From: Methylobacter tundripaludum
Lineage (GTDB): Bacteria; Pseudomonadota; Gammaproteobacteria; Methylococcales; Methylomonadaceae
Assembly (NCBI RefSeq): GCF_002934365.1
Contig: NZ_PTIY01000013.1
Span: forward strand, 1-64,000
Direction: 5' to 3'
DNA: 64,000 bases
The translations under genes and the position numbers were made by a program. Below the pieces are notes generated by a model that saw only the letters and a program-made list of their open reading frames with translations, did not search any database and had not been told where the DNA came from. Shown here one piece after another: positions 7,777-20,752 of this stretch (position 1 is the first letter of the stretch; each line of letters opens with the position of its first letter).

Positions 7777-8586
7777 ATGTCCTATCTGATTCCTTCAGAA
7801 TTTGTCACAAAGATGGTCGACGCAGGTGAATCCAAAATCTTCATGTCAACCAGAGATACTTTGATCAGGGCTTATATGGCCGGAGCGATTCTGGCGTTGG
7901 CTGCGGTATTTGCGGTCGCTGTTGCTGTGCAAACGAATTCGCCGATTTTTGGTGCGATTTTATTCCCGGTTGGTTTTTGCATGCTGTATTTGCTAGGTTT
8001 CGACCTTCTGACCGGTGTTTTTGTTTTGACGCCGCTGGCACTGATTGATAAACGTCCAGGCGTAACCATCGACGGTATTTTCAGGAACTGGGGCTTAGTC
8101 TTTGCAGGTAATTTTCTTGGGGCCTTAACGGTAGCGGTTATGATGTCGATTGTCTACACCTACGGTTTTTCCGTTGAACCTAATGATGTGGGCAAAAAGC
8201 TGGCAGGCATCGGTGAAGCGCGGACGCTGGGCTATGCAAAATATGGCGTGGCCGGCTGGTTTACGATCTTTATCAGGGGCATGCTGTGTAACTGGATGGT
8301 ATCCACCGGTGTGGTCGGGGCGATGATTTCCACGTCCGTTAGCGGCAAGGTGATCGCCATGTGGATGCCGATCATGCTGTTCTTTGGCATGGCCTTCGAG
8401 CACTCGGTCGTCAACATGTTTCTGTTTCCGGCCGGTTTGATCATGGGAGGAAATTTTTCGATTATGGATTACTTTATCTGGAATGAGATTCCGACCGTTT
8501 TGGGCAATCTGATCGGCGGGCTTGCGTTTACCGGGTTGACCCTCTATTCCACGCATATAAAAACCGCGCCTAAACGCGCCTTATAA
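7777..8586 (+). CDS. Formate/nitrite transporter family channel (FocA/NirC type)
   Basis: A 269-residue member of the FNT family, pentameric inner-membrane channels for small monovalent anions such as formate, nitrite or hydrosulfide. Six hydrophobic segments are visible, including the family signatures AYMAGAILALAAVFA near residue 31 and GMAFEHSVVNMFLFPAGL in the last third, which carries the conserved pore histidine region. The start is supported by AAAGGTGAGTT before the ATG. The next gene is cyanase, 86 bp downstream, so nitrite or possibly cyanate is the likelier substrate; formate is possible in a methylotroph. Substrate choice is an inference from context. The gene is probably driven by the RpoN-type promoter upstream. 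Confidence 0.92.
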   Translation: MSYLIPSEFVTKMVDAGESKIFMSTRDTLIRAYMAGAILALAAVFAVAVAVQTNSPIFGAILFPVGFCMLYLLGFDLLTGVFVLTPLALIDKRPGVTIDGIFRNWGLVFAGNFLGALTVAVMMSIVYTYGFSVEPNDVGKKLAGIGEARTLGYAKYGVAGWFTIFIRGMLCNWMVSTGVVGAMISTSVSGKVIAMWMPIMLFFGMAFEHSVVNMFLFPAGLIMGGNFSIMDYFIWNEIPTVLGNLIGGLAFTGLTLYSTHIKTAPKRAL

Positions 8587-8672
8587 TTGATCCGAATGAT
8601 ACAAGAAAGCCTCAGCCCATCAGTGTCTGAGGCTGATTAACAATCACTGTTTACTTTGTAAAAGGGCTCATC

Positions 8673-9116
8673 ATGACACGCAACGAAGTTACCGAATTGA
8701 TCATCACGCACAAACTGCGCAAACAACTGACATGGCCTCAACTGGCCGACGCCATCGGTCAGAGCAAGGAGTGGACGACAGCCGCCCTGTTGGGACAGAT
8801 GACGCTTAACGCCGAACAGGCCGCCAAGATCGGCGCCATGCTGGAGTTGCCCGCCGAGGCTATCGAACAATTGCAAGTTGTTCCCTACAAGGGTTCCCTG
8901 CCCTCCGCAGTGCCGACCGATCCGTTGATTTATCGTTTCTACGAGCTGGTCAGCGTCTACGGCACTACCTTTAAAGCGCTGATTCACGAAGAGTTCGGTG
9001 ACGGCATTATGAGCGCCATCGATTTCAGCATGGATCTTCAACGTGAACCCGATCCCAAAGGAGACCGTGTCAAGATCGTGATGAGCGGTAAATTTCTTCC
9101 TTATAAAAGTTATTGA
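8673..9116 (+). CDS. cynS: Cyanate hydratase (cyanase)
   Basis: A 147-residue cyanase, which converts cyanate and bicarbonate to ammonia and two CO2 through carbamate in a cytoplasmic decamer. The N-terminal helical domain (KQLTWPQLADAIGQSKEWTTAALLGQM) and the C-terminal catalytic domain are present. The family's catalytic Arg, Glu and Ser are seen in YRFYELVSVYGTTFKALIHEEFGDGIMSAIDF. Length is close to the E. coli enzyme. AAAGGG before the ATG serves as ribosome binding site. There is no cynABD-type transporter and no carbonic anhydrase (cynT) beside it; it sits between an FNT channel and a phosphatase-kinase fusion, a nitrogen-assimilation setting. Confidence 0.96.
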   Translation: MTRNEVTELIITHKLRKQLTWPQLADAIGQSKEWTTAALLGQMTLNAEQAAKIGAMLELPAEAIEQLQVVPYKGSLPSAVPTDPLIYRFYELVSVYGTTFKALIHEEFGDGIMSAIDFSMDLQREPDPKGDRVKIVMSGKFLPYKSY

Positions 9117-9159
9117 AGGTCTGAGCCCTGTGAATGACTGCGGCCGCTCGCCATAAAAA

Positions 9160-10881
9160 ATGTCCAGCCGATTAAAAATCTCCGTAGGCCAATGCTCGGA
9201 CAAAGGCCGTAAGGAAATCAACCAGGATTTCCACGGCGTTTATATCCCGAAAGAACCGCAGTTGAGTTCGAAAGGCGTTGCTATTGCCCTGGCCGACGGG
9301 ATCAGCAGCAGCGATGTCAGTCACATTGCCAGTCAAGCCGCCGTGACCGGCTTTTTGGAGGATTATTTTTGCACTTCGGAAGCTTGGTCGGTAAAAAAGT
9401 CGGTACAGCGGGTTTTGATAGCAAGCAACTCATGGTTGCATGCGCAAACCCGGCAAAGCCGGTATTGTTACGATATGGACAGAGGCTATGTCTGTACCTT
9501 AAGCGCGATGGTGATCAAATCCACTACCGCGCATATTTTCCATGTGGGCGATTCACGGATTTACCGATTGCGCGACCATGACCTGGAACAGCTCACCAAC
9601 GATCATCGGCTTTGGATTTCGCAGGATAAAAGCTATCTAAGCCGCGCCTTGGGAATGGATTCCCATCTTGAAATCGATCATAAAGCCCTGCCCGTGGCAA
9701 AAGGCGATATTTTCTTGTTCGCGACCGATGGCGTTTACGAATTTGCCGGCCCGGAATTCATCGTCGACGCCATCAGCAAAGCCGGGGGGAATCTCGATTC
9801 CACAGCCAAAGCGATCGTCGATCAAGCTTACCTGCAAGGCAGTACGGATAACCTCACCGTTCAGATCGTCAGAGTCGAAAACTTACCCAAACAGAGCGCT
9901 AACGAGCTTTACCAGTCGTTAACCGAGCTGCCGTTCCCGCCGGTATTGGAAGCGCGGATGCTGTTTGACGGCTATACCATTGTCAGGAAATTACACGCCA
10001 GCAGCCGCAGCCACATTTATCTGGCGGTATATAACGAAACTAACGCTCAGGTCGTTATAAAAACCCCGTCTATCGACCTTCGGGGCGATCCGGCTTATTT
10101 GGAACGCTTCCTGATGGAAGACTGGATCGCCCGGCGCATCAATAATGCGCATGTGCTCAAACCATGCGCGCAGACGCGCAAGCGCAATTTTTTATACGTG
10201 GTCACCGAATTCATTGACGGACAGACCTTGACGCAGTGGATGATCGACAATCCGAAACCGGACCTGGAAACCGTGCGAGGGATTGTCGAGCAAATAGCGA
10301 AAGGCTTGAGAGCTTTTCACCGGCTGGAAATGCTGCATCAGGATTTGAGACCCGCCAACATCATGATCGACAGCACCGGCACCGTGAAGATTATTGATTT
10401 TGGTTCAACGAGGGTCGCGGGCATTATCGAAATGACCACGCCGATCAGGCGCGACGACATACTGGGTACCGCCCAATATACCGCGCCGGAGTATTTTCTC
10501 GGGGAACAGGGTTCCGAACGTTCGGATATGTTTTCCCTGTCCGTGATTGCCTATCAAATGTTGACCGGCAAGCTGCCCTATGGCGCTGAAGTAGCCAAAT
10601 GCAAGACCAAAGCCGCGCAAAACAAATTAATGTATGACTCTTTGCGTTATGAGAATCGCGAAATTCCAGCCTGGGTTGACGATGCGATCAGGAAGGCGGC
10701 GCATCCGAATCCTTACAAACGCTACGAGGACCTGACCGAATTCATTTTCGATCTGCGTCATCCGAATCAGGCGTTTCTGAACAAGACCCGTCAACCACTT
10801 TTGGAACGAAACCCATTGGCTTTCTGGAAAGGTGTTTCTTTTATCCTCGCGCTTATCATCATAGTATTATTGAATAACTGA
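9160..10881 (+). CDS. Bifunctional PP2C-type phosphatase / Ser-Thr protein kinase, membrane anchored
   Basis: A 573-residue fusion. Residues about 1-235 form a PP2C phosphatase: an N-terminal GRKEINQDF with metal-binding Asp, ALADGISSSDVSH, FHVGDSRIYRL, LFATDGVYEF and STDNLTVQIV. Residues about 265-535 form a eukaryotic-type kinase: VVIKTP (ATP lysine), HQDLRPANIM (catalytic loop, HRDLKPEN-like), IIDFGS and APEYFLGEQGSERSDMFSLS. The C terminus has one membrane helix (FILALIIIVLL), so both enzymatic domains face the cytoplasm. The fusion is known beside nitrate/nitrite assimilation genes in proteobacteria. Here it follows cynS by 43 bp, suggesting that it regulates uptake or assimilation by reversible phosphorylation; its target is unknown. 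Confidence 0.93.
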   Translation: MSSRLKISVGQCSDKGRKEINQDFHGVYIPKEPQLSSKGVAIALADGISSSDVSHIASQAAVTGFLEDYFCTSEAWSVKKSVQRVLIASNSWLHAQTRQSRYCYDMDRGYVCTLSAMVIKSTTAHIFHVGDSRIYRLRDHDLEQLTNDHRLWISQDKSYLSRALGMDSHLEIDHKALPVAKGDIFLFATDGVYEFAGPEFIVDAISKAGGNLDSTAKAIVDQAYLQGSTDNLTVQIVRVENLPKQSANELYQSLTELPFPPVLEARMLFDGYTIVRKLHASSRSHIYLAVYNETNAQVVIKTPSIDLRGDPAYLERFLMEDWIARRINNAHVLKPCAQTRKRNFLYVVTEFIDGQTLTQWMIDNPKPDLETVRGIVEQIAKGLRAFHRLEMLHQDLRPANIMIDSTGTVKIIDFGSTRVAGIIEMTTPIRRDDILGTAQYTAPEYFLGEQGSERSDMFSLSVIAYQMLTGKLPYGAEVAKCKTKAAQNKLMYDSLRYENREIPAWVDDAIRKAAHPNPYKRYEDLTEFIFDLRHPNQAFLNKTRQPLLERNPLAFWKGVSFILALIIIVLLNN

Positions 10882-11066: not shown

Positions 11067-12053
11067 TCACACATTATGACTGCGCAATTGCGTCATCAGC
11101 TCTTCAGCCAAACCCTTTACTTCACCTTGGGTAATAATAACCAGCCGTCCAACGCCGTCATCGGACGTTCTTACCGGCAGCCGCGTTGCCGGATAAAGCC
11201 TTCCGGCACCCCCTTGCACCAGCAAGGGTTGGTTTTGCCCTGGCGTGTAAACCATACCTTTTACGCGGACCAGCTGTTTAGGGTAATGGGCAATCAGGTA
11301 TTCCAATGTTTTTTGCATCCGCTCCCACGGTAACGGATGCTCAAGCTGCAAGGTGATGCTGCTGAAACCGTGATCCGGTAACTCGGGCAGTTCGGTATTA
11401 CGCAGCCGCCTGAATTTGTTCGGCAAATTGAGCAGCGCATTGTGGTCAAGCTCGCCTTGCACTGCGGTCAGACGGGTTGCGGCGGGAGCCAAGACCGACA
11501 AGCGCGCATCCAGTTTGGCAATCGCTTCCGCTGTCGCCAAGTCGGTTTGCGTCATGACCACCGTATCCGCCCAAGCGATTTGGGCCTGGGCTTCGGGAAA
11601 ATAGTCGAAATGATCGGTATCCATGCTCGCCGAAACGGTGGCGATAACGCCTTGCAAGCTGTACCGCGCAGCCAGCCAACGTTCCCTTAACAAAATGTCC
11701 AGCACCGGTTCAGGATTGGCGACGCCGCTGGTTTCGATGATCACCCGCTCGAAAGGCCTGTCCCCGGAATCCCAGGCCATGCGCAGGTTTTTAAGCAAGG
11801 GCGTTAACGAACCTATCACCTGACAGCACAAGCAGCCGCCGACCAAGGTCGATAACGGTACTTTGTGCTCGCGCAGCAATTGTTGGTCGATCGGGGTGGC
11901 GCCGAACTCATTGATAATCACGGCGGATTGGGGCGCATGGCTCAATAAACGATTCAGTAACGTGGTTTTCCCGCTGCCGAGAAAACCGCTGATAATGAAT
12001 ACGGGTATGCGTTCAATAACGTTGGATGACCTGGCTAGACTGTAATTATTCAT
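11067..12053 (-). CDS. COG0523 (CobW/ZNG-like) metallochaperone GTPase, copy 3 of the zinc operon
   Basis: A 328-residue G3E-family GTPase. Walker A is GFLGSGKT (residues 23-30), and the zinc-binding CxCC motif is C74-L-C76-C77 in GGCLCCQ. Switch and Walker B equivalents are VIIETSGVANPEP, and the base-specificity motif is TQTD in place of the usual NKxD/SKxD. A C-terminal CobW domain follows from about residue 230. COG0523 proteins move or insert metal, most often zinc, into client proteins (family knowledge). This is the last gene of the minus-strand zinc series, 5 bp after the FhcA-like gene, so that enzyme is a plausible client; this is inference. It lacks the His-rich stretch found in some members. 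Confidence 0.9.
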   Translation of the reverse strand: MNNYSLARSSNVIERIPVFIISGFLGSGKTTLLNRLLSHAPQSAVIINEFGATPIDQQLLREHKVPLSTLVGGCLCCQVIGSLTPLLKNLRMAWDSGDRPFERVIIETSGVANPEPVLDILLRERWLAARYSLQGVIATVSASMDTDHFDYFPEAQAQIAWADTVVMTQTDLATAEAIAKLDARLSVLAPAATRLTAVQGELDHNALLNLPNKFRRLRNTELPELPDHGFSSITLQLEHPLPWERMQKTLEYLIAHYPKQLVRVKGMVYTPGQNQPLLVQGGAGRLYPATRLPVRTSDDGVGRLVIITQGEVKGLAEELMTQLRSHNV

Positions 12054-12058
12054 GTGAT

Positions 12059-13753
12059 TTATTGATAAATGGTATTTGCGGCGGCTTCCCGACAGGCCGA
12101 ATAAGGCTGTCCGGCATCATGGCTGACAAAGCGTTCACTATCGGCCTGCCTGAAACTGACATCCTCCACCTTAAAATTATCCAGGCTCAGGTTATAAAAG
12201 CGGTCGTAGTAGGCCTGTAGTTCGCGTTTGATTTGCCGATCAAAAGGCAACTGAATCATTTGCGTGGCGCCGTTACGGCGCTGCTGTACAACGCCGTTTT
12301 TTACCGCCAATTCCCCGTTTTTAAAGACCAGGTCGGCAGCGCTGAACATGGCCTCCTTATCGGCTTCCGGGGTGTACACCGCAATATCGGCAATGGCGCC
12401 GGGCATTAAATGGCCTCTATCCTTTAAGCCTAGCATACGCGCCGCTGCGGTACGGGTCATAACGGCGATTTCATACAACGAAAACTCTTTTTTCAGCTCC
12501 TTTAATAAACTCATCGCGACCGCTTCCTGATTCAGTTCGGCCATGCATTCCAAACGAAAATCGTAATCCATTAACAGCCGGATCAAATGCGGATAGCGCG
12601 TAAACGGGCCGCCGTTGGGATGATCGGTAGTAAAAAACAAGCGCCACGGGTCTTCGGCCAGCAAAAATATTTCCAAGCCGATCAACCATTGCAAGCTGTT
12701 AACAAAACTTTTTTGCTGATAACGGTACGGAACAGCGCCGCCGCTGCCTTCGCATTCGGCATCCCACATAACCCATTTGTTGGGCGTCGCATCGTTACGG
12801 CGGCTGTATTGGGCAATCACATCGCCGGAAATAGTCACGGTCTGGCCAAACAACACCTGACCGACGTCCATCGTGATATTGCGATGTTGATTAAATCCGT
12901 CGATTAATTTGGCCGCCGCCGATGAAAAGCCCCGGCCGCCTTCGTTGCCATAGCCGTAAAACTGGATATGCGCCAAATGCATCGGCAAGCCTTGCGCGGC
13001 TTCCATGGTGGCGATAGCGGTATCGACATTGCCGGGGAGACCCAAGTTATTGCAATGCACATGTACAGGGTGCGGCAGTTGAATGTCGCACGCCGCGCGT
13101 TGCAGCGTTTGCAAAATCTGCCGGGAACTCACGCCGTAATCCGGCACCACATCATCCAACGCAAAACTGCGCACATTCGATTTAAAAGCATTGGCGCCGC
13201 CGGCATTAATCACCTTTAATCCCAAACAGCGGGTCGCCTGTAAGGTCCAGGCCACATAATCGTTGACCTGGTTTTGACTAGCCTTAGCGCGCAGCAGCCG
13301 CAACAGGAAATCATCGTTACCGAGAATGGCCAAACCCGCGGTATCGATGATCGGAATGTCGGCCATTTGCAAGTGGGCATCCAGCGCGTTAGCGGGCAAT
13401 ACCGCCGGTTCAACGACGGTCGTGTAACCCATTTGCGCGTAGCGATAGCCGGTTTCGGTGGTTGACCAGCGCGCGGTGCTGAACGCGTGACCCAGCTTGC
13501 GGGCCATGTAGTTGCGGTGCTGTTCGGGCAGCAACAAGCGCGCGGTGTTAACGTTGCCGCCGGCAATGTGGCTATGAATATCAACCGCCCCGGCCATGAC
13601 GATTTTGCCGGAGACGTCATAATCGGCATCAATCGCTACGCCTGAATCGAGCTCGGAAATAATCACGCCATCCCGGATAAACAGATCTTGAACGGTGCCG
13701 TTCAGGCCTTGGGCGGGATCGAACAGCTGCCCGCCTGTTAAACGCGTCAACAT
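12059..13753 (-). CDS. Formylmethanofuran dehydrogenase subunit A-like amidohydrolase (FhcA/FmdA family)
   Basis: A 564-residue amidohydrolase of the FmdA/FwdA/FhcA family. FhcA of methylotrophs, in complex with FhcBCD, handles formyl transfer and hydrolysis between formyl-tetrahydromethanopterin and formate (family knowledge). Binuclear metal-site candidates are all present: H60 and H62 (DIHSH), K180 (LGLKVINAGG, the expected carboxylated lysine), H231/H233 (HVHCNNLG), H259/H262 (MHLAHIQF) and D377 (FTTDHPNGGPF). The ATG at 13753 is chosen because it lies 1 bp after the upstream GTPase stop, with AGGAT ahead; an earlier start would overlap that gene by about 90 bp. No fhcB, fhcC or fhcD lies nearby. 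It is flanked on both sides by COG0523 GTPases in a Zur-type operon, suggesting a zinc-limitation paralogue. Whether another fhcA exists elsewhere cannot be seen. Confidence 0.88.
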   Translation of the reverse strand: MLTRLTGGQLFDPAQGLNGTVQDLFIRDGVIISELDSGVAIDADYDVSGKIVMAGAVDIHSHIAGGNVNTARLLLPEQHRNYMARKLGHAFSTARWSTTETGYRYAQMGYTTVVEPAVLPANALDAHLQMADIPIIDTAGLAILGNDDFLLRLLRAKASQNQVNDYVAWTLQATRCLGLKVINAGGANAFKSNVRSFALDDVVPDYGVSSRQILQTLQRAACDIQLPHPVHVHCNNLGLPGNVDTAIATMEAAQGLPMHLAHIQFYGYGNEGGRGFSSAAAKLIDGFNQHRNITMDVGQVLFGQTVTISGDVIAQYSRRNDATPNKWVMWDAECEGSGGAVPYRYQQKSFVNSLQWLIGLEIFLLAEDPWRLFFTTDHPNGGPFTRYPHLIRLLMDYDFRLECMAELNQEAVAMSLLKELKKEFSLYEIAVMTRTAAARMLGLKDRGHLMPGAIADIAVYTPEADKEAMFSAADLVFKNGELAVKNGVVQQRRNGATQMIQLPFDRQIKRELQAYYDRFYNLSLDNFKVEDVSFRQADSERFVSHDAGQPYSACREAAANTIYQ

Positions 13754-13754
13754 C

Positions 13755-14744
13755 TCAAATGATCCTGCAACTGTCCAGCGCCTCGTGTATGGCCTGTTTG
13801 GGCAGGTTACGCCCGATAAAGACCAAGGTTGACCGACGGATTTCATCGGCCGCCCAAGGCACGCCGATACTGTCTGCCAACAGCATGTGTACGCCCTGGT
13901 AAATCACCTTGCGGTCGCAGCCCGCTATATGGACGATGCCTTTATAGCGCAATAAATCGTTGCCGTAATCCCTGACCATGACATCGATAAAGGCGATCAT
14001 TTTGGCCGCATCGAAAGCCTTGTCGGTGCGGTATACGAAAGACGCGATACCGCCATCGTGTTCATGGCTGACGTCTTCCAGAAAATCGGGTTCAATTTCC
14101 AGAATGGCATTGAGATTGAAACCGCGTATGTCGAGAATTTCACCGATGTCGGTTTCGCCAAAATGGGCATGAGCGATAGGCGCGCGGGCGTTGATTGCGC
14201 GTAACCGCGCTTCCAATGCGGCCAGTTGTTCCGGCGTTATCAAGTCGGTTTTGGATAACAACAAGCGGTCTGCAAAGCCGACCTGCTCTTCCGCTTCATG
14301 GCATTCAGCAAGTTGTTTAAGTGCGTGTTTGGCATCAACGACGGTAATAATCGCATCGAGCAGATAATATTCACCAATATCCTGCTCGACAAAAAACGTT
14401 TGCGCGACAGGCGCGGGGTCCGCCAGTCCGGTGGTTTCGATAACGACCCGCTCAAAGTGCAGCAAACCGTTCTCCCGTTTTTCGGCCAACTCGCCCAAAA
14501 TCCGCACCAAGTCGCCGCGCACGGTGCAGCAAATACAGCCGTTGTTCATTTCAACGATTTGCTCCTCCCCTTGAATCAGTAGGTCGTTATCGATACCGGC
14601 TTCGCCGAATTCATTTTCGATGACTGCAATGCGGCGGCCATGTTCCTCGGACAGGATACGATTTAAAAGCGTCGTTTTTCCTGCGCCTAAAAAACCGGTC
14701 AGAATGGTGACCGGAACAGGTGTGGAGCGGTTAGAATCAGACAT
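13755..14744 (-). CDS. COG0523 (CobW/YjiA-like) metallochaperone GTPase, copy 2 of the zinc operon
   Basis: A 329-residue G3E GTPase with Walker A GFLGAGKT (residues 17-24), the family glutamate motif ENEFGEAGID, metal-binding C70-I-C72-C73 (NNGCICC), VVIETTGLADPAP and SKTDL for guanine recognition, then a CobW C-terminal domain. It resembles the YjiA/YeiR branch of zinc-responsive members. It lies 45 bp after the DUF1826 gene and 1 bp before the FhcA-like gene, so it is almost certainly co-transcribed with the latter. Likely role: GTP-dependent delivery of zinc to a client under scarcity. The client is not known; the adjacent FhcA-like enzyme is the obvious candidate by position. Confidence 0.92.
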   Translation of the reverse strand: MSDSNRSTPVPVTILTGFLGAGKTTLLNRILSEEHGRRIAVIENEFGEAGIDNDLLIQGEEQIVEMNNGCICCTVRGDLVRILGELAEKRENGLLHFERVVIETTGLADPAPVAQTFFVEQDIGEYYLLDAIITVVDAKHALKQLAECHEAEEQVGFADRLLLSKTDLITPEQLAALEARLRAINARAPIAHAHFGETDIGEILDIRGFNLNAILEIEPDFLEDVSHEHDGGIASFVYRTDKAFDAAKMIAFIDVMVRDYGNDLLRYKGIVHIAGCDRKVIYQGVHMLLADSIGVPWAADEIRRSTLVFIGRNLPKQAIHEALDSCRII

Positions 14745-14789
14745 GGATTATCCTATCGGTTGTAAAGAAATAAAGTTTGCGTGACAAAC

Positions 14790-15470
14790 TCAGCCAAAAT
14801 CCAGCGTCAATAACAAGCGCCGGGGGGAATTGAGCGTCAATTTTGGCGAGCGATGTATCGCGCCATGCTGTTCGTTGCCTTCCCATAAACCGCCTTTCAG
14901 CAAACCGATAGCATAAGGCGGCATATTGTGGATCGCGTTAGTGTCCAAAATCAGGCCTGAGAGTTCGTCGCTTAAGCCGCCGGAACCACGGCCCAATTTG
15001 CGCCGGTCGGCATAAGCATCTTCCAGCCATTCGGTGCCGATGCCGCCGTAAGTACACACCAAACGGCAGGTCACCGAATCGACATGAAATTTGGGACACA
15101 TGGCATGATCCAAGGTATTCAAACGCAAGCCGACACGCTTCAACTCGAATAAATCGCAATAAAGCGCGGTTAAAGCGGCCACATCGTTGCAAAATGCCCG
15201 GTAACCCGGTAAATGTGCTGCCCGAGGCTGTAGGCTAAAGAAATCGAATGACGCAAAGTCAATGCTTTCAACAAAAACGATTGGATTGGGAAGTCTTAAC
15301 ACATGCTCGACAAAGCGGCTCAGCTCGTTATCAACCTGTCGCTCTATCAGGCAAAGATTGATGCCGGGTTGATAGATTTGGGCCAAATCGGCCACGTCGT
15401 CAGACAGGTAAGCTTGAGAATAAAGCGGCTTTGTTAAATGCTGCGCGGCAACAACCATGTTTGTCCTCAT
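14790..15470 (-). CDS. DUF1826 family protein (zinc-locus protein)
   Basis: A 226-residue protein recognised as DUF1826 by the block CPKFHVDSVTCRLVCTYGG followed by GTEWLED and, near the end, AIHRSPKLTLNSPRRLLLTLD. The ATG at 15470 is chosen because it overlaps the ZIP transporter stop in an ATGA, a typical translational-coupling junction; longer versions would run deep into that gene. The family is recurrently found beside COG0523 GTPases and zinc-responsive genes (family knowledge, function unproven). Conserved Cys and His residues in the central block could bind metal, or the fold could be oxygenase-like; both are speculation. It is predicted soluble and cytoplasmic. Confidence 0.8.
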   Translation of the reverse strand: MRTNMVVAAQHLTKPLYSQAYLSDDVADLAQIYQPGINLCLIERQVDNELSRFVEHVLRLPNPIVFVESIDFASFDFFSLQPRAAHLPGYRAFCNDVAALTALYCDLFELKRVGLRLNTLDHAMCPKFHVDSVTCRLVCTYGGIGTEWLEDAYADRRKLGRGSGGLSDELSGLILDTNAIHNMPPYAIGLLKGGLWEGNEQHGAIHRSPKLTLNSPRRLLLTLDFG

Positions 15471-16252
15471 TGATTGAATAAAAAACGTTCCAGAATAATA
15501 ATCGACTGCATGAAGCCGATACCGAATGCGAAAATTGTCGTTTGCCCAAACAGATGGGGCAACGTTGAATGTTCGTGTAAAGCGGGAATCATGTCGGTGG
15601 CGGCAATATAGATAAATCCGCCTGCCGCAATTGGTAGTAAAAATACCAAGGACGATTCCGCCACTTGACTGAACAACAGGGTAAATACCGCGCCGGCGAC
15701 AACCGTCAGCGAACAATAAAAGTTATAAAGAACCGCTTTGGCCGGTGGGTACCCGCCATAAACCAGTGCGCCGACATCGCCGATTTCCTGGGGAATTTCA
15801 TGGGCAATGATCGCCAGGGTCGTGGTAAAGCCTAATACCGGATCCACTAAAAAACTGCCCGCAATCAAAATGCCATCGACAAAGTTATGGATGGCGTCGC
15901 CCATTAAGTTCATCTTTGCGATGGGTTTGATGTACCCGGATTGTTCCGATATATCAATGTGATGGTCATGTCGCCAACGCACCACTTTTTCCAGTATAAA
16001 AAAGATAAACACGCCTGCGAGGGTTAGCAAACAAACCGTGGAGACCGAACCCTGCCGGTTTACCGCATCGGGAATCAAATGAATAAAGGCGTCGCCCAAT
16101 AACACGCCGACCGCCAAGGCGACCAGATAAGGAATTATCCGTTTTAATTGTTCCGCCTCGACCCATAAGGCGAACATGCCGCTCATTGAGGTCAGGCTGA
16201 CCAGAAAACTTGCGCCGATAGCGCTCGCAACTATTTCAAATGAAAGATTCAT
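15467..16252 (-). CDS. ZIP family divalent metal transporter
   Basis: A 261-residue ZIP protein, an inner-membrane importer of zinc and related metals. Eight hydrophobic segments are visible. The two metal-binding helices carry GDAIHNFVDGILIAG and IAHEIPQEIGD, the ZIP signature HN-x3-D and HE-x2-QE, and there is a short His-containing loop (RHDHHIDI) between helices 3 and 4, as usual. It is followed by the overlapping DUF1826 gene. A broken ZIP-like fragment and a pair of REP-like elements lie upstream, so the gene may be the retained copy of a duplication. Placement in the zinc operon suggests zinc uptake across the inner membrane. Confidence 0.92.
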   Translation of the reverse strand: MNLSFEIVASAIGASFLVSLTSMSGMFALWVEAEQLKRIIPYLVALAVGVLLGDAFIHLIPDAVNRQGSVSTVCLLTLAGVFIFFILEKVVRWRHDHHIDISEQSGYIKPIAKMNLMGDAIHNFVDGILIAGSFLVDPVLGFTTTLAIIAHEIPQEIGDVGALVYGGYPPAKAVLYNFYCSLTVVAGAVFTLLFSQVAESSLVFLLPIAAGGFIYIAATDMIPALHEHSTLPHLFGQTTIFAFGIGFMQSIIILERFLFNQ

Positions 16253-16339
16253 CGTTATTCATTATTCGGAAATTCTTTTGGGATAAATTTAGGATTTGGT
16301 TAAAAATAACTTCCCGAAATCGCTATTTTCGGCCATCAA

Positions 16340-16432
16340 GCCGTTCGTGCTGAACCTGTCGAAGCATGAGCGGCTTGACGCGGTAGGCCCGAAATTTTTC
16401 CGCTCACCCTTCGACAAGCTCAGGGCGAACGG
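16340..16432. repeat. Pair of inverted REP-like elements
   Basis: Two related elements face each other. The first (16340-16373) reads CCGTTCGTGCTGAACCTGTC then GAAGCATGAGCGG. The second (16401-16432) reads CGCTCACCCTTCGACAAGC then TCAGGGCGAACGG, which on the minus strand becomes CCGTTCGCCCTGAGC then TTGTCGAAGGGTGAGCGG. Each can fold into a hairpin. The pair is separated by about 27 bp, as in BIME-type arrangements. They lie inside the zinc operon between the ZIP remnant and the intact ZIP gene, and could influence transcript stability or termination. A third related copy is at about 7321-7355. Confidence 0.7.
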
Positions 16433-16478
16433 AAAAACTTCACCGTTCCATGTCGAGAAGTTATTACCGGCCATATCC

Positions 16479-16685
16479 TTACCGGTGTGAGCCGTAAATG
16501 AATTCGGCAATGGCATTCGGCAGCAGATGCAATACCGCATCCGCCAATAACACGCCACCCACTACAGCGATTAAATTCGACGCAATGCGTTTTAAACGTT
16601 TGTCCTTAAGCCACGGCGACAACAAGCCCAAGCTTATTAACAGGCCCGCGCCAATGGCATGAACAGTGCGATCAAGACTGCTCAT
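16479..16685 (-). pseudogene. ZIP transporter N-terminal remnant
   Basis: A 68-codon frame resembles the first two helices of ZIP proteins: AIGAGLLISLGLL, KDKRLKRIASNLIAVVGGVLLADAVLHLLPNAI matches ALAVGVLLGDAFIHLIPDAV in the intact ZIP next door. It then ends abruptly at GSHR, far short of the metal-binding helices. Its start overlaps the end of the ZigA-like gene by 14 bp, as an authentic operon gene would. The most likely explanation is a once-functional ZIP gene truncated by deletion or repeat insertion (REP pair just downstream). A small functional membrane protein cannot be excluded. Confidence 0.65.
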
Positions 16686-17880
16686 CGGTCAACCATTCCG
16701 GGAAATTATCCCGGTAGGTTTGCCATGCGCCCTTACCGGCCGATAATTCCTCATCGTTCAACAAACACAGGTCCAATTCCCGGCATGCTTTATCGGCATC
16801 GATGTTTTGACCGATAAAGACCAGTTCTTGCCGGCAATCGCCAAAAGGGGCTTGCCAGTTAGCGCGAATATCCGCGACGTAATCTTCAGGCCATTCCGAT
16901 TCAGGCACCGACGCCCACCAGCGTCCGGCGCAGCCATGTTGTAGGGTGCCGCCGGCTTGCGACCAGTTGCCGACCCATTCGGGCCGCGAGGCCAGCCAGA
17001 AAAAGCCTTTGGAACGCAGCAAGGTGCCGTTGTTCCAATCGTCGCGATGCAGATAATCGTAAAAACGCTCGGGATGAAACGGCTTACGGGCGGCGTAAAC
17101 GAAACTGGCGATGCCGTATTCCTCGGTTTCGGGCTTATGCGTACCGCGCATTTCTTGCAGCCAGCCCGGCGCCTGTTCCGCCTGTTCGAAATTGAAGCGT
17201 CCGGTATTGATGATTTTACGAAGAGGCGCTTGCCCCATGACCATCGGGATGATCTCGGCATCGCGATTCAGGGTGTGCAAAATGGCGGTCAGGTTAGCCA
17301 GCTCGTCACTGCACACCAAATCCGCTTTTGAAATCAGAATCACGTTACTGAATTCCACCTGCTCCACCAGCAAATCGGCGATATTGCGTTCATCCTCCTC
17401 GCCCAGTTCGGCATGGATGTCTTTCAGCGATTGAGCTTCCAGGTAATCCCGCATGAAGTTGACCGCATCGACCACCGTCACCAGGGTATCCAGTTTGGAA
17501 ATATCCGACAAACTAACGCCGTCTTCATCCCTAAAGGCAAAGGTTTCTGCAATCGGCATGGGTTCCGCGATACCGGTCGATTCAATCAACAGATAATCGA
17601 ATCGGCCTTCCTTGGCCAGTTGCCCGACTTCCACCAGCAAGTCTTCGCGTAATGTGCAGCAGATGCAGCCATTGCTCATTTCCACGAGTTTTTCTTCGGC
17701 GCGATTAAGGGTGACTTCGTTTTTAACGAGCGCCGCGTCAATGTTGATCTCGCTCATGTCATTAACGATCACGGCTATTTTTAAGCCCTCGCGGTTGGCG
17801 AGAATGTGATTGAGCAGCGTGGTTTTGCCCGCGCCTAAAAAGCCGGACAATACGGTTACCGGTAAGCGTTTTTCAGTCAT
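16672..17880 (-). CDS. zigA: ZigA-type zinc metallochaperone GTPase (COG0523)
   Basis: A 402-residue member of the long COG0523 branch that includes ZigA of Acinetobacter. Walker A is GFLGAGKT near the N terminus, then [14 protein letters not shown], zinc motif [25 protein letters not shown] and ISKADLV. The long C-terminal domain is rich in Trp and carries GFFWLASRP and [12 protein letters not shown], typical of this branch. An ATG at 17880 follows an in-frame GTG; the ATG is preferred. It is the second gene after the TonB receptor (about 155 bp downstream) and overlaps the ZIP remnant. Role: GTP-dependent metal delivery during zinc starvation (family knowledge). Confidence 0.92.
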
Positions 17881-18035
17881 CACTATGCGCGCTCACGCTG
17901 TTGTTGGTTGATTTTGCTCGAGCAACGCTAAATAGCCGGCCCGCTTTATTAATAGCGATACCGTATAAGGTGCGGCCCAAGTATTCTTTTTGTGCTCAGG
18001 AATTACACTGGCTTGATGGATTCTCGACATTTTCA

Positions 18036-20081
18036 TCAGTAACTCACCCTAATACCTATCTCGGCGCTGCGGCCCGGTTCCGGGGCGAAATTACGCAGAT
18101 ACGATGTCGAATTGCGGATGTTCTCGTTCAGCATGTTCTTGCCTTTTGCAAACAGCAGCATTTCGGAACCGCCAAAACTCGCCAAGCGGTATTGCGCACC
18201 CAAATCCAGCAACAGATAGCCGGGGGTGTTGGAGTCATGCTCGCCCGCATGATTTTGCGCTTCGCCACGGGTTAACCGGGCATTGGTTGACCAATCGTTT
18301 TTCTCGTAGCTCAGTTGCAGCCCATAGCGTAGCGGCGGCATTCGGGGCACGTTGCCGCCCTGCTCAAAGGTGCCTCGGGTATAGTCGCCGAACAAAGTCA
18401 GATCGACCGCGCCGTAACGGTTTTCCATCAGCGGAAACACGGTTTTGGCTTCAAAGCCTTTGAAGGTGGCCGCGGCCTGCCGGCTTTCCAATACCGGAAT
18501 ACAAGTTCCAGAGCAAACATCCTCAAATGCTTCGGCGTCTTCGTTAAACAACGAGCCGGTTCGTTGCTGATAAATGTAGTCGTTGACCCAATTGTGGAAA
18601 AGATTCAGCTCCGCTGCCATCCAATCGGCATTGTAGCGATAGCCCAAATCCAGGTTATTGGACAACTCCTTATTGAGGCCGGCGTTACCCAATTCATAGC
18701 TGTGCGTGGCCTCATGAACGCCGTTGGAAAACAATTCCTGTATCTGCGGCGCGCGCTGCGAATGGGTGAATGCCAGACTAACCTGATGCTGGTCGGTAAT
18801 GTCCCACAATGCGGAAGCCGAGCCGCTGAGCGGTTTATAAGTCAGGCTGTTGCCGTTTTCCGGCGTTATGGTTTGCCATTCGCCGCGCGCGCCCAGCTCA
18901 TAGGTCACATCGCCGATTTTGAACGATTCGACGTCAAACAAGCCGTAGGAATTAAGGTCGGTACGCGGCACCAACGCTTCTGCGCCGATCGCGGAAAACT
19001 GGCTGTTGACCGACTGAAAACCCATCACGCCGTTTAATAAACCGATGGGCTTATGTTCAAGCTCCACGCGGCTTTCGTAGGATTTGTTCAAGAAAGTCGT
19101 GGCCGGGGTGCCGTTGTCCATTTCGACATGCTTGTAGTCGGTATAGCCGAATTTTATCCGCAGCTTTTCCGCCAGCGCGAACGGCCGGTTGAGCTGGCCT
19201 TTAAAATCGTACTTGGTTTGATTCAGATCGATAGTCACCGGCGCGCCGCCGCTGCCGTCCGGCGGGATGCCGTAGTTTTTCTCCAGGCTGTTGATCGAAA
19301 CGCCGACTAAGCCCGCATCGCCGATTTTAGAGATGCCGACCGAGCCGCCGCGCGATCTCGCCTTTGAATTGTCAATCAGGCCGTTGGGATTGTTCACAAT
19401 ATTCAGACTGGAATCGATAGAGCGGGCGGCATCCTCGTCTATCGCAGAGCCGCCGATATGGGTGTTGCCCTGATCGCGGTAAAAACCGTCGACATGATAG
19501 GCCACGCCGCTTTTTCCGCCTTCCAGCTTGACGGCGCTGGAGGTCTCGTTGGTTGCCGAATCATAGCGCTGCTCGCCGGCGCCGCCGAGCAGCTTGTCCG
19601 GCACCTGCTCGGGAATCCGGTTGTCGATCACGTTGACCACGCCGCCGATGGCGCCGTTTCCGTACAACAGCGTCGACGGCCCGCGCAACACTTCAATCCG
19701 TTCCGCCAGAATCGGTTCCACGCCGTTGGCATGATCCGGGCTTAATGACGAGACATCATTATTGCCCAGGCTGTTCTGCATGACCCGTACCCGAGGCCCC
19801 GATTGCCCGCGGATGACCGGCGAACCAACACCCGCGCCGAACGACTGGCTGGTAATGCCGAGTTCATTCTTCAGCGTGTCGCCGATGGTTGTCCCCGTTT
19901 TCATCCGCAACTGGTCTCCCGTCAGCACCGTTACCGGCTTGGCCGATTTGGCGGTGGACTGCTTGATGCCGGTACTGATGACGACGATGTCCTCCAGTTT
20001 GTGGGCGTCATTATCAGCCGCATGGGCATTGGTTGCTATCGCACTTGTCGATAAGAAAATAACAGTGAGTTTTTTATTCAT
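18036..20081 (-). CDS. TonB-dependent outer-membrane receptor, ZnuD-like
   Basis: A 681-residue TonB-dependent receptor with a Sec signal peptide (MNKKLTVIFLSTSAIATNAHA). The plug domain spans about residues 45-150 (KPVTVLTGDQLRMKTGTTIG, PVIRGQSGPRVRVMQN, ERIEVLRGPSTLLYGNGAIGG). A 22-strand-type barrel ends in an aromatic C terminus (GIRVSY). A Cys pair in an external loop (DVCSGTC) and the overall pattern resemble ZnuD, a zinc and haem receptor. A strong Zur box lies about 60 bp upstream of the start, and zur itself follows upstream, making zinc the most likely ligand. It opens the minus-strand series that continues through zigA to the FhcA-like gene. Confidence 0.92.
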   Translation of the reverse strand: MNKKLTVIFLSTSAIATNAHAADNDAHKLEDIVVISTGIKQSTAKSAKPVTVLTGDQLRMKTGTTIGDTLKNELGITSQSFGAGVGSPVIRGQSGPRVRVMQNSLGNNDVSSLSPDHANGVEPILAERIEVLRGPSTLLYGNGAIGGVVNVIDNRIPEQVPDKLLGGAGEQRYDSATNETSSAVKLEGGKSGVAYHVDGFYRDQGNTHIGGSAIDEDAARSIDSSLNIVNNPNGLIDNSKARSRGGSVGISKIGDAGLVGVSINSLEKNYGIPPDGSGGAPVTIDLNQTKYDFKGQLNRPFALAEKLRIKFGYTDYKHVEMDNGTPATTFLNKSYESRVELEHKPIGLLNGVMGFQSVNSQFSAIGAEALVPRTDLNSYGLFDVESFKIGDVTYELGARGEWQTITPENGNSLTYKPLSGSASALWDITDQHQVSLAFTHSQRAPQIQELFSNGVHEATHSYELGNAGLNKELSNNLDLGYRYNADWMAAELNLFHNWVNDYIYQQRTGSLFNEDAEAFEDVCSGTCIPVLESRQAAATFKGFEAKTVFPLMENRYGAVDLTLFGDYTRGTFEQGGNVPRMPPLRYGLQLSYEKNDWSTNARLTRGEAQNHAGEHDSNTPGYLLLDLGAQYRLASFGGSEMLLFAKGKNMLNENIRNSTSYLRNFAPEPGRSAEIGIRVSY

Positions 20082-20142
20082 GGTTTTTATTTATTGTTTA
20101 AAAATGTGAGACATGGACTTGGCTCAAGACGCAGCTATATAA

Positions 20143-20157
20143 TGTTATAACGTAACA
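20143..20157. promoter_or_regulatory. Zur box upstream of the TonB receptor operon
   Basis: TGTTATAACGTAACA matches the gammaproteobacterial Zur consensus core (TGTTATANNNTAACA-like, close to GTTATAACATAAC) with near-perfect dyad symmetry. It lies between the zur stop codon and the receptor start, 62 bp ahead of the ATG, where it would block the promoter of the receptor and the zinc genes behind it when zinc is sufficient. No comparable site was found in the 155 bp ahead of zigA, or in the other gaps of the series, which supports one long regulated unit. Confidence 0.8.
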
Positions 20158-20195
20158 CCCGGTAAGCCTTCCTGCCTGCCAAAAAAATAACGGTA

Positions 20196-20708
20196 TCAGT
20201 TTTGATCGCCCATCGTTTCCGCGCATTGTGCGCAAACGCCATGAATTTCGATGGCTTTGCTGTGAACGATAAAGTCGGCCTGCTTGATTTCTTCCGACAG
20301 CGCCTGCATGACTTCCGGGGCCGGCCGCTCTTCCACTTCCTGGCAGTTATTGCAGATCAGCAATAACTGTTCATGCTGATGAGCGGAGCAATTGCAACCG
20401 ACAAATGCGTTGAGGCTCTCGACCCGGTGAATCAAGCCCTGCTCGATTAGAAAATCCAGCGCGCGGTAAATCGTCGCGGGCTTTGCCGCATCCATCAGAG
20501 GTTTGATCCGATCCAACAGCTCGTAAGCCTTAACCGCTTTGTGACTTTCCCAGATCAGCTCCAGCACTTGCTGGCGTATAGGCGTCAATTGCACGCCGCG
20601 CACCACGCATAGCTGAGCGGCGGTGCCCAATGCCTCGCTGACGCATTTTTTATGATCGTGCCCTAAAGGATGGGAATGGTTGTGGCTTGCTTCGGCTGAT
20701 GTATTCAT
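20196..20708 (-). CDS. zur: Zinc uptake regulator Zur (Fur family)
   Basis: A 170-residue Fur-family repressor. A winged-helix domain (TPIRQQVLELIWESHKAVKAYELL, AKPATIYRALDFLIEQGLIHRV) is followed by the dimerisation domain. That domain has the family CNNC and CAQC pairs (ICNNCQEVEE, GVCAQCAET), which hold structural zinc, and a regulatory-site histidine cluster (SAHQHEQ). The unusual N-terminal HNHSHPLGHDHKKC tail may add metal binding. The context, with two Zur boxes and a TonB/ZIP/COG0523 operon, identifies it as Zur rather than Fur. A perfect Zur palindrome 28 bp upstream implies autorepression. Confidence 0.93.
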   Translation of the reverse strand: MNTSAEASHNHSHPLGHDHKKCVSEALGTAAQLCVVRGVQLTPIRQQVLELIWESHKAVKAYELLDRIKPLMDAAKPATIYRALDFLIEQGLIHRVESLNAFVGCNCSAHQHEQLLLICNNCQEVEERPAPEVMQALSEEIKQADFIVHSKAIEIHGVCAQCAETMGDQN

Positions 20709-20735: not shown

Positions 20736-20752
20736 ATGTTATATTATAACAT
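20736..20752. promoter_or_regulatory. Zur box upstream of zur (perfect palindrome)
   Basis: ATGTTATATTATAACAT is a perfect 17-bp palindrome around a central T. It matches the core of the E. coli znu operator (ATGTTATAnTATAACAT). It lies 28 bp upstream of the zur start and implies that Zur represses its own gene. The nhaD gene starts about 185 bp away on the other strand and could conceivably share it. Confidence 0.88.

Follow-up and report, generated by a model that had tools for sequence, protein, structure and literature searches.

A second FhcA encoded in a seemingly zinc-responsive cluster of many methanotrophs suggests protection of formaldehyde oxidation at zinc shortage

The window (the whole stretch of 64,000 nucleotides of Methylobacter tundripaludum DNA that was analysed) contains, on its minus strand, a zinc gene cluster in which a gene for an FhcA-type amidohydrolase is embedded. 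The cluster opens with the Zur regulator gene (20196..20708; FUR domain; NF008646, E 3.4e-38, with 131 bits below the cut-off of 167) and a ZnuD-like TonB-dependent receptor (18036..20081), for which NF038289 was the best NCBIfam match (E 3.5e-133) with 445.7 bits, below the cut-off of 950. These are followed by ZigA, a zinc metallochaperone GTPase starting at GTG 17883 or ATG 17880 (16672..17883; NF038288, 655.7 bits for a cut-off of 600), a ZIP-family zinc transporter (15467..16252; PF02535, E 4.5e-39) and a DUF1826 protein (14790..15458; PF08856, E 4.4e-61), read here from the ATG at 15458 within a longer frame extending to 15716. Two COG0523/G3E GTPases, both with a CobW_C domain, come last, and between them lies fhcAz (12059..13753), encoding a Zur-linked FhcA-type protein of 564 residues. 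The upstream GTPase (a, 13755..14744) matched Pfam cobW with E 1.3e-57 and scored 306 bits with NF008578, under the cut-off of 361; the downstream one (b, 11067..12053) matched cobW with E 3.4e-39. A single base (13754) separates GTPase a from the fhcAz ATG at 13753, and five bases lie between the end of the fhcAz stop codon at 12059 and GTPase b, which begins at 12053. ORF coordinates and profile matches thus agree with the gene order, strand and spacings of the original prediction. A longer ORF would place the fhcAz start at 13846, which is unlikely, as alignment of the FhcA N-terminus (MLTRLTGG) begins at 13753.

With up to 3 mismatches allowed, the box scan detected only two Zur boxes within the 64 kb, both on the minus strand. 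One is a perfect palindrome before zur (20736..20752), and nowhere else in the genome does TGTTATANTATAACA occur exactly; the other, with 2 mismatches, lies at 20142..20158 before znuD, where a box had been announced. Scans of stretches upstream of zigA, the ZIP gene, the DUF1826 gene and the first COG0523 gene of the window gave no Zur box even with 4 mismatches allowed. If zigA to fhcAz depend on the zur and znuD boxes, gaps of 152 and 419 bp would have to be transcribed across. Genome-wide, the box core was no commoner at up to 2 mismatches (5 sites) than its reversed control (12 sites). This core scan alone is not significant, and the Zur argument rests on where the boxes stand in the clusters of the relatives. 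Among zinc-linked FhcAz loci with at least 4.5 kb of upstream sequence, 28 of 32 have a Zur box upstream, as Zur-regulated paralogues do, the window's own boxes standing before zur and znuD only; the remaining 4 showed none in the stretch scanned. In total 46 hits were obtained, against a shuffle mean of 0.3, a number that includes overlapping readings of single palindromes and hence corresponds to fewer than 46 sites.

Linkage to zinc genes extends to the relatives. Leaving the window aside, 47 of 52 distinct FhcAz loci adjoin zinc genes, a conservation that had been proposed as a check and that is shared with known Zur-regulon paralogues; the other 5 are without a zinc gene. With duplicates included, FolE2 is present in 25 of 59 loci, HisI in 11, ThrS in 9 and QueD in 9, and membership in these four families was confirmed in locus L034, that of FolE2 and HisI also in L038. 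As to the dedicated chaperone that the original prediction also offered, in the Methylomonas and Methylocaldum loci it is DUF1826, not COG0523, that immediately precedes fhcAz. None of the 59 loci has fhcB, fhcC or fhcD within the stretch examined.

In the genome of the window these three genes lie elsewhere. Missing from the zinc cluster, as the original prediction had it, they are all found on contig C3, in a canonical fhcB-A-D-C operon with a second fhcA (C3:40657-42267), so that fhcAz is not the only fhcA of the genome. The canonical copy is its zinc-dependent counterpart, the zinc dependence being taken from structures of the family. Of 311 Methylococcales genomes, at least 62 carry FhcAz-type genes, and an additional FhcA match was present in 57 of these 62 among the matches listed.

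FhcAz belongs to TIGR03121 (profile search, E 4e-200, 665.7 bits for a cut-off of 392.75), and its nearest solved chain by phmmer is an FhcA, 6s6y_A (E 6.9e-152, 510 bits). The candidate metal site put forward earlier is complete, with H60, H62, K180, H231/H233, H259/H262 and D377 all present. Alignment to M. wolfei FwdA points to H60, H62, K180, H233, H262 and D377 as the six ligands, and this putative set of four His, one Lys and one Asp is kept in all 41 FhcAz sequences aligned. Ligand loss of the kind seen in DksA2 and HemB2 is ruled out by this retention as the way in which FhcAz would save zinc, and FhcAz most probably continues to work with a binuclear metal site rather than metal-free. 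In archaeal subunit A, the [Zn-Zn] site has four His, Asp and carboxylysine as ligands (PMC11656701).

FhcAz shares its family and putative ligands with M. extorquens FhcA (PDB 6s6y), and differs from it in being encoded in a zinc cluster instead of an fhc operon and in a set of clade-specific residues. These are E129Q, A314 and R318 in 41 of 41 sequences, S317 and Y424F in 40, and I313 in 39; position 129 is Glu in all 91 rows outside FhcAz. Like archaeal FwdA/FmdA (PDB 5t5i, 8rja, 9sfi, 9sw6, 7bkb), FhcAz would be a subunit A of the binuclear-site amidohydrolase type, whereas the archaeal proteins are paired with a Mo/W formate dehydrogenase module. The archaeal gatekeeper Lys64 aligns with Asn67 of FhcAz, a position that is Lys in 49 of 49 canonical gammaproteobacterial FhcA. 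Canonical gammaproteobacterial FhcA also have cysteines C238, C337 and C341, and FhcAz is without Cys at two of these three positions. The AlphaFold2 model of FhcAz has a mean pLDDT of 83.0 and a pTM of 0.86, with low segments at 76-95, 312-314 and 321-338. The structure of Fhc itself was reportedly described by Hemmann et al. in 2019.

For the phylogeny, 176 proteins were reduced to 132 by removing duplicates, and fragments shorter than 440-450 residues were left out together with split genes (e.g. L017, L054, L061); the tree rows comprised 24 of 41 FhcAz, 17 of 49 canonical, 23 of 35 alphaproteobacterial and 7 of 7 other sequences. FhcAz formed a single clade (support 100/100) that grouped with alphaproteobacterial FhcA and not with the host's own. 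This placement rules out a recent duplication of the host fhcA: the paralogue that had been predicted exists, as a separate lineage near alphaproteobacterial FhcA. With dN/dS between 0.085 and 0.139 in four pairs, fhcAz is under purifying selection, its ratio exceeding the canonical fhcA value by a factor of three to four.

Paralogues of HisI, PyrC, Cam, HemB, CysRS, ThrRS, AmiA, QueD and DksA, as well as FolE2, are among those reported in Zur regulons, where such spares have roles in, among others, the synthesis of folate, histidine, pyrimidines and haem, the charging of tRNA, queuosine and carbonic anhydrase (Haas et al. 2009, PMC2770081). Like them, FhcAz is a second copy of a zinc-dependent protein, clustered with zur, COG0523, DUF1826 and transport genes and with Zur boxes, and in relatives fhcAz directly adjoins FolE2, HisI, ThrS and QueD. 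Unlike the paralogues listed, it is one subunit of a complex in C1 energy metabolism, and the word formylmethanofuran is absent from the main text of that paper. The literature searched contained no description of an FhcA copy in a zinc or Zur cluster, which agrees with the earlier impression that the arrangement is undescribed.

On balance, we consider it probable that fhcAz encodes a Zur-controlled spare FhcA which, in zinc-starved cells, joins the standard FhcBCD. The conservation of boxes and gene order suggests that at zinc shortage Zur would leave its boxes and the zinc cluster would be transcribed. FhcAz would then stand in for canonical FhcA in the complex, alongside the standard FhcB, FhcC and FhcD. 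This formyltransferase/hydrolase complex, whose amidohydrolase subunit is A, releases formate from formyl-methylofuran. When metal is scarce, the site may be filled because FhcAz retains its metal more tightly, with the help of the co-encoded COG0523 and ZigA proteins, or through a larger number of copies. We know of no zinc site in bacterial FhcB, FhcC or FhcD; that A holds the binuclear zinc site would explain why only A has a spare. A draft genome, G297 (95% complete), supports the exchange, as the one FhcA found in it is of the FhcAz type. It has fhcB (317.4 bits, slightly below the family cut-off of 327.8) followed by a different gene, and fhcDC standing alone. A lone FhcA under Zur control would be odd. 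A more specific version, to which we give rather less than even chances, is that Zur releases FhcAz, a long-diverged alpha-type A, which is exchanged into the cell's own FhcBCD. The resulting hybrid would need less metal or make other metal demands, for instance by lacking the full C238/C337/C341 set, and zinc would thereby directly tune a central energy pathway.

Other explanations must be weighed against the spare subunit. FhcAz could substitute for the zinc enzyme by binding a metal other than zinc (Fe, Mn or Co, for instance) with the same ligands; for Zur-regulon paralogues, reliance on other metals or on no metal at all has been suggested (PMC2770081). The clade-specific A314, R318 and E129Q would fit such a change, but the six putative ligands are invariant, and we regard this as unlikely. 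The original prediction holds for the second canonical fhcA and the conserved zinc linkage, and its suggestion of another metal finds no support in the sequence, since every putative ligand is retained. Still less likely, in our view, FhcAz would be another amidohydrolase, useful in zinc starvation and no longer part of the Fhc complex. Its clade-specific changes may speak against an isoform, namely A314, fixed at the site aligned with M. wolfei Met323, a methanofuran contact, along with E129Q and Y424F. However, FhcAz keeps 119 of the 129 conserved columns common to canonical and alphaproteobacterial FhcA, as well as 13 of the 16 basic columns that are conserved, it sits beside alphaproteobacterial FhcA encoded in fhc operons, and G297 has it as its sole FhcA found.

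Least probable of all, to our judgement, is a passenger, that is, an extra FhcA moving with the zinc cluster between lineages and having no zinc-specific role. Near-identical FhcAz occur in genomes of two families (L194 and L195), and one subclade (L024, L027, L066, L188) has neither zinc genes nor Zur boxes, FhcAz loci devoid of zinc genes showing no box nearby at up to 2 mismatches. Against this, zinc linkage is retained throughout the clade with one loss, purifying selection acts on the gene, and known Zur-regulon paralogues repeatedly stand alongside it. A plasmid-borne passenger was rejected: 38 plasmid records had a match, none of them as high as 60% identity.

The presence in many methanotrophs of a second FhcA in a seemingly zinc-responsive cluster suggests that formaldehyde oxidation is protected at zinc shortage. 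A formaldehyde-to-formate subunit of methanotrophs would thereby be added to the known class of Zur-regulon spares, and FhcAz suggests that a single subunit of a four-subunit complex is exchanged. If true, zinc supply would bear on the flow of carbon and energy and on the detoxification of formaldehyde in methane consumers. The proposal is directly testable, because FhcAz is carried by cultured methanotrophs, M. buryatense 5G (L038) and Methylomonas sp. LW13 (L033), both open to genetics.

A standalone fhcA is not unique to FhcAz, as 15 marine alphaproteobacterial FhcA loci are also without fhcB, fhcC and fhcD. A new FhcA function, considered for the marine FhcA beside folE-hisI (folE being assigned by reading its sequence, not by a family search), was dropped, because the folE-hisI adjacency looks ordinary in Alphaproteobacteria and 11 of the 15 genomes encode FhcD elsewhere.

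Between 20708 and 11067 on its minus strand, the window carries, in this order, zur, a ZnuD-like TonB receptor gene, zigA, genes for ZIP and DUF1826, a COG0523 GTPase gene (COG0523 a), an FhcA-type amidohydrolase gene (fhcAz, encoding FhcAz) and a second COG0523 gene (COG0523 b). The ATG of fhcAz, at 13753, is placed 1 base after the preceding gene, and the gene stops 5 bases before the next one; order, strand and the 1 bp and 5 bp spacings are as originally predicted. Against TIGR03121 (cut-off 392.75) FhcAz reaches 665.7 bits; among solved structures the nearest is the FhcA of PDB entry 6s6y (E 6.9e-152), from M. extorquens. Judged by this score and by its metal ligands, FhcAz is a member of the FhcA family. 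Adjoining the operon on the opposite strand (7777-10881, +) are genes for a formate/nitrite transporter, a cyanate lyase and a PP2C-kinase fusion.

A search of the genome (4.18 Mb in 45 contigs) yielded one other FhcA over the cut-off, on contig C3 (40657-42267, 775 bits). The order there is fhcB, fhcA, a 281-aa ORF, fhcD, fhcC, with a Fae-like gene on the opposite strand; fhcB passes its family cut-off, and fhcC, fhcD and Fae were identified from sequence. The genome thus has a second, canonical fhcA in an fhc operon, and the possibility that fhcAz is its sole fhcA, named beforehand as one that would count against the prediction, is set aside. The 281-aa ORF (L071:4504-5349, -) had no Pfam or NCBIfam match.

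In a maximum-likelihood tree of 71 rows, 24 of the 41 FhcAz rows among them, FhcAz forms one clade (100/100). It joins alphaproteobacterial FhcA (ten rows, L162-L171, are so labelled from a search with the M. extorquens protein) and is split from canonical gamma-type FhcA and its relatives (100/99). The same split came out of a second tree (51 rows), to which FhcA of Rhizobium, Phyllobacterium and Methylocystis plasmids had been added, without fixing the order inside the alpha side. Because the trees separate it from canonical FhcA, and because its mean identity is close to 51% with both groups (51.4% to canonical, 50.8% to alpha FhcA), FhcAz is an old separate lineage and not a recent duplicate. 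Among 311 genomes of Methylococcales, searched at an E limit of 1e-100, at least 65 matches in at least 62 genomes had 68% identity or more to FhcAz; the other matches listed were at or below 55%, leaving a clean gap. A further FhcA match was found in 57 of these genomes. Of 398 genomes sampled across the phylum, 18 gave an FhcA match at E 1e-80; the FhcAz type was seen in the window's own genome alone. Matches were also present in 38 plasmid records, all below 60% identity. A Methylocystis rosea plasmid (L230:7995-9814) carries fhcA and, after it, a short FhcD-like fragment, with no fhcB or fhcC match within 17.6 kb around fhcA. L194 and L195 belong to different families, yet their FhcAz are near-identical, with end branches of 0.0023 and 0.0025; the zinc cluster may thus have been transferred. 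The FhcAz of L026, a record titled Methyloversatilis universalis, clusters with that of Methylocaldum (L023), and its contig coordinates are nearly those of G218, a genome of the window's order; the title is therefore probably wrong.

The neighbourhood of FhcAz is conserved. In 59 loci, some duplicated from two collections, flanking genes were assigned by best match to seed proteins; many contigs are short and the counts are lower bounds. The matches comprised DUF1826 (at least 48), COG0523 a (at least 41), ZIP (at least 37), ZigA (at least 36) and COG0523 b (at least 34), so that the linkage of fhcA to COG0523 is borne out beyond the window. They were joined by ZnuD (at least 26), FolE2 (at least 25), Zur (at least 12), HisI (at least 11), ThrS and QueD (at least 9 each). 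NCBIfam cut-offs were passed by ThrS, QueD, FolE2 and HisI in L034, and by FolE2 and HisI in L038. These four families are given for Zur regulons by Haas et al. 2009 (PMC2770081), where DUF1826 is named in the Figure 4 legend; the word "formylmethanofuran" was not found in the main text of that paper. The absence of fhcB, fhcC and fhcD, claimed for the window, extends to the available flanks of all 59 loci. Seven loci, duplicates included, had no zinc gene. In 28 comparison loci with other FhcA, no zinc gene other than hisI was detected with our gammaproteobacterial seeds, which distant ones could escape. HisI matched in 15 of these, from marine alphaproteobacteria (L039-L051 without L041, L045 and L046; L059, L060, L064, L068, L070), with an adjacent folE in the two inspected. 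In these small genomes a single FhcA over the cut-off lies near hisI, apart from other fhc genes, and FhcD is found elsewhere in 11 of the 15.

Zinc genes were present in 47 of 52 distinct FhcAz loci, the window excluded, and 28 of the 32 zinc-linked loci with at least 4.5 kb upstream had a predicted Zur box at up to 2 mismatches. The 52 loci (370,595 bases) gave 46 box matches, overlapping readings of one palindrome being counted separately, whereas 20 dinucleotide shuffles had a mean of 0.3 and a maximum of 2. At the same threshold, 2 matches came from the 84 canonical and alpha loci, which span 771 kb and often have short flanks. In the window, a perfect palindrome precedes zur (20736-20752), and the box expected before the TonB receptor gene is there, in a weaker form with 2 mismatches (20142-20158). 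Counting against Zur control of fhcAz, the core pattern had 5 sites genome-wide at up to 2 mismatches, fewer than the 12 of the reversed control, although the site before zur was the sole exact match. Also against it, nothing better than 5-7 mismatches was found before zigA, ZIP, DUF1826 or COG0523 a in the window, so that fhcAz would there rely on read-through that starts at the znuD or zur promoter and spans gaps of 152 and 419 bp. The 419-bp gap, between zigA and ZIP (16253-16671), has no clear gene and a repeat-like stretch, which may weaken such read-through. In three close relatives (L004, L007, L009) a box adjoins zigA, with which the fhcAz unit begins.

Four loci without zinc genes (L024, L027, L066, L188) showed no Zur box at up to 2 mismatches upstream of their fhcA-like gene, which in the three inspected adjoins an apparent bioA or cysD, named from sequence. 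In a quick tree without bootstrap (51 FhcAz rows, five outgroup rows) they form one clade (SH-aLRT 100) inside that of FhcAz, with moderate support (82). Since they form a single clade there, one loss of zinc linkage would suffice. L054, the fifth such locus, is represented by a short fragment.

In subunit A, a carboxylysine, an Asp and four His residues are described as the ligands of the [Zn-Zn] site (PMC11656701). By alignment, the FhcAz ligands would be H60, H62, H233, H262, D377 and K180, the choice of His being inferred; all six of these candidate ligands, a complete set as predicted, are invariant in 41/41 FhcAz. Methanofuran contacts in M. wolfei are Leu235, Phe274 and Met323, and Lys64 may act as a gatekeeper (PMC11656701). 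Leu237 and Phe265 of FhcAz keep the contact positions; Met323 aligns with Ala314, where 42/49 canonical and 34/35 alpha rows have Arg or Lys, and Lys64 with Asn67. Of the 129 columns that canonical and alpha FhcA have in common, FhcAz retains 119; among the 16 conserved basic columns it keeps 13, and it has gained Arg318. Position 129 is Gln in 41/41 FhcAz and Glu in 91/91 other rows; position 424 is Phe in 40/41 FhcAz, and Tyr in 84/84 canonical and alpha rows and 5/7 others. With dN/dS of 0.085-0.139 versus 0.026-0.038 for canonical fhcA (four pairs each), fhcAz is under constraint, looser than that on the canonical gene. Cysteines C238, C337 and C341 of canonical gamma FhcA (L001 numbering), present in 48, 49 and 49 of 49 rows, could form a further metal site; FhcAz has Asn at the first and Gly at the third (41/41 each) and keeps the second in 37/41.

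By its gene context, FhcAz probably belongs to the zinc-protein spares of Zur regulons, and a spare for A alone fits a zinc reason because A carries the zinc site. Its retained ligands make it similar to the spares of HisI, ThrRS and QueD, and for those Haas et al. (PMC2770081) name more copies as one explanation. Under scarcity FhcAz may hold zinc more tightly, be loaded by the COG0523 proteins, or use another metal. We found no paper joining Zur, COG0523 and formylmethanofuran dehydrogenase, in a search mostly outside subscription papers whose silence is not proof, and fhcA was not mentioned among the matches listed in a related literature search.

Five of the genomes with FhcAz had a single FhcA match. 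Four say little because they are less than 90% complete (FhcD was found in G259 and G066, and not in G191 and G255). The fifth, G297, from the window's family, is 95% complete, and the only FhcA found is of the FhcAz type (L193), adjoining ZIP with a 2-mismatch box. Its fhcB is full-length (317.4, cut-off 327.8), with 15 kb between it and the contig end, and the gene after it is phosphopantetheinyl-transferase-like; fhcD and fhcC lie on another contig without fhcA. Provided that the assembly is correct, the role of FhcA in this genome must fall to FhcAz. The fhc genes of G297 are scattered (L206, L228, L193), with fhcB alone, fhcDC alone and the FhcAz-type fhcA apart.
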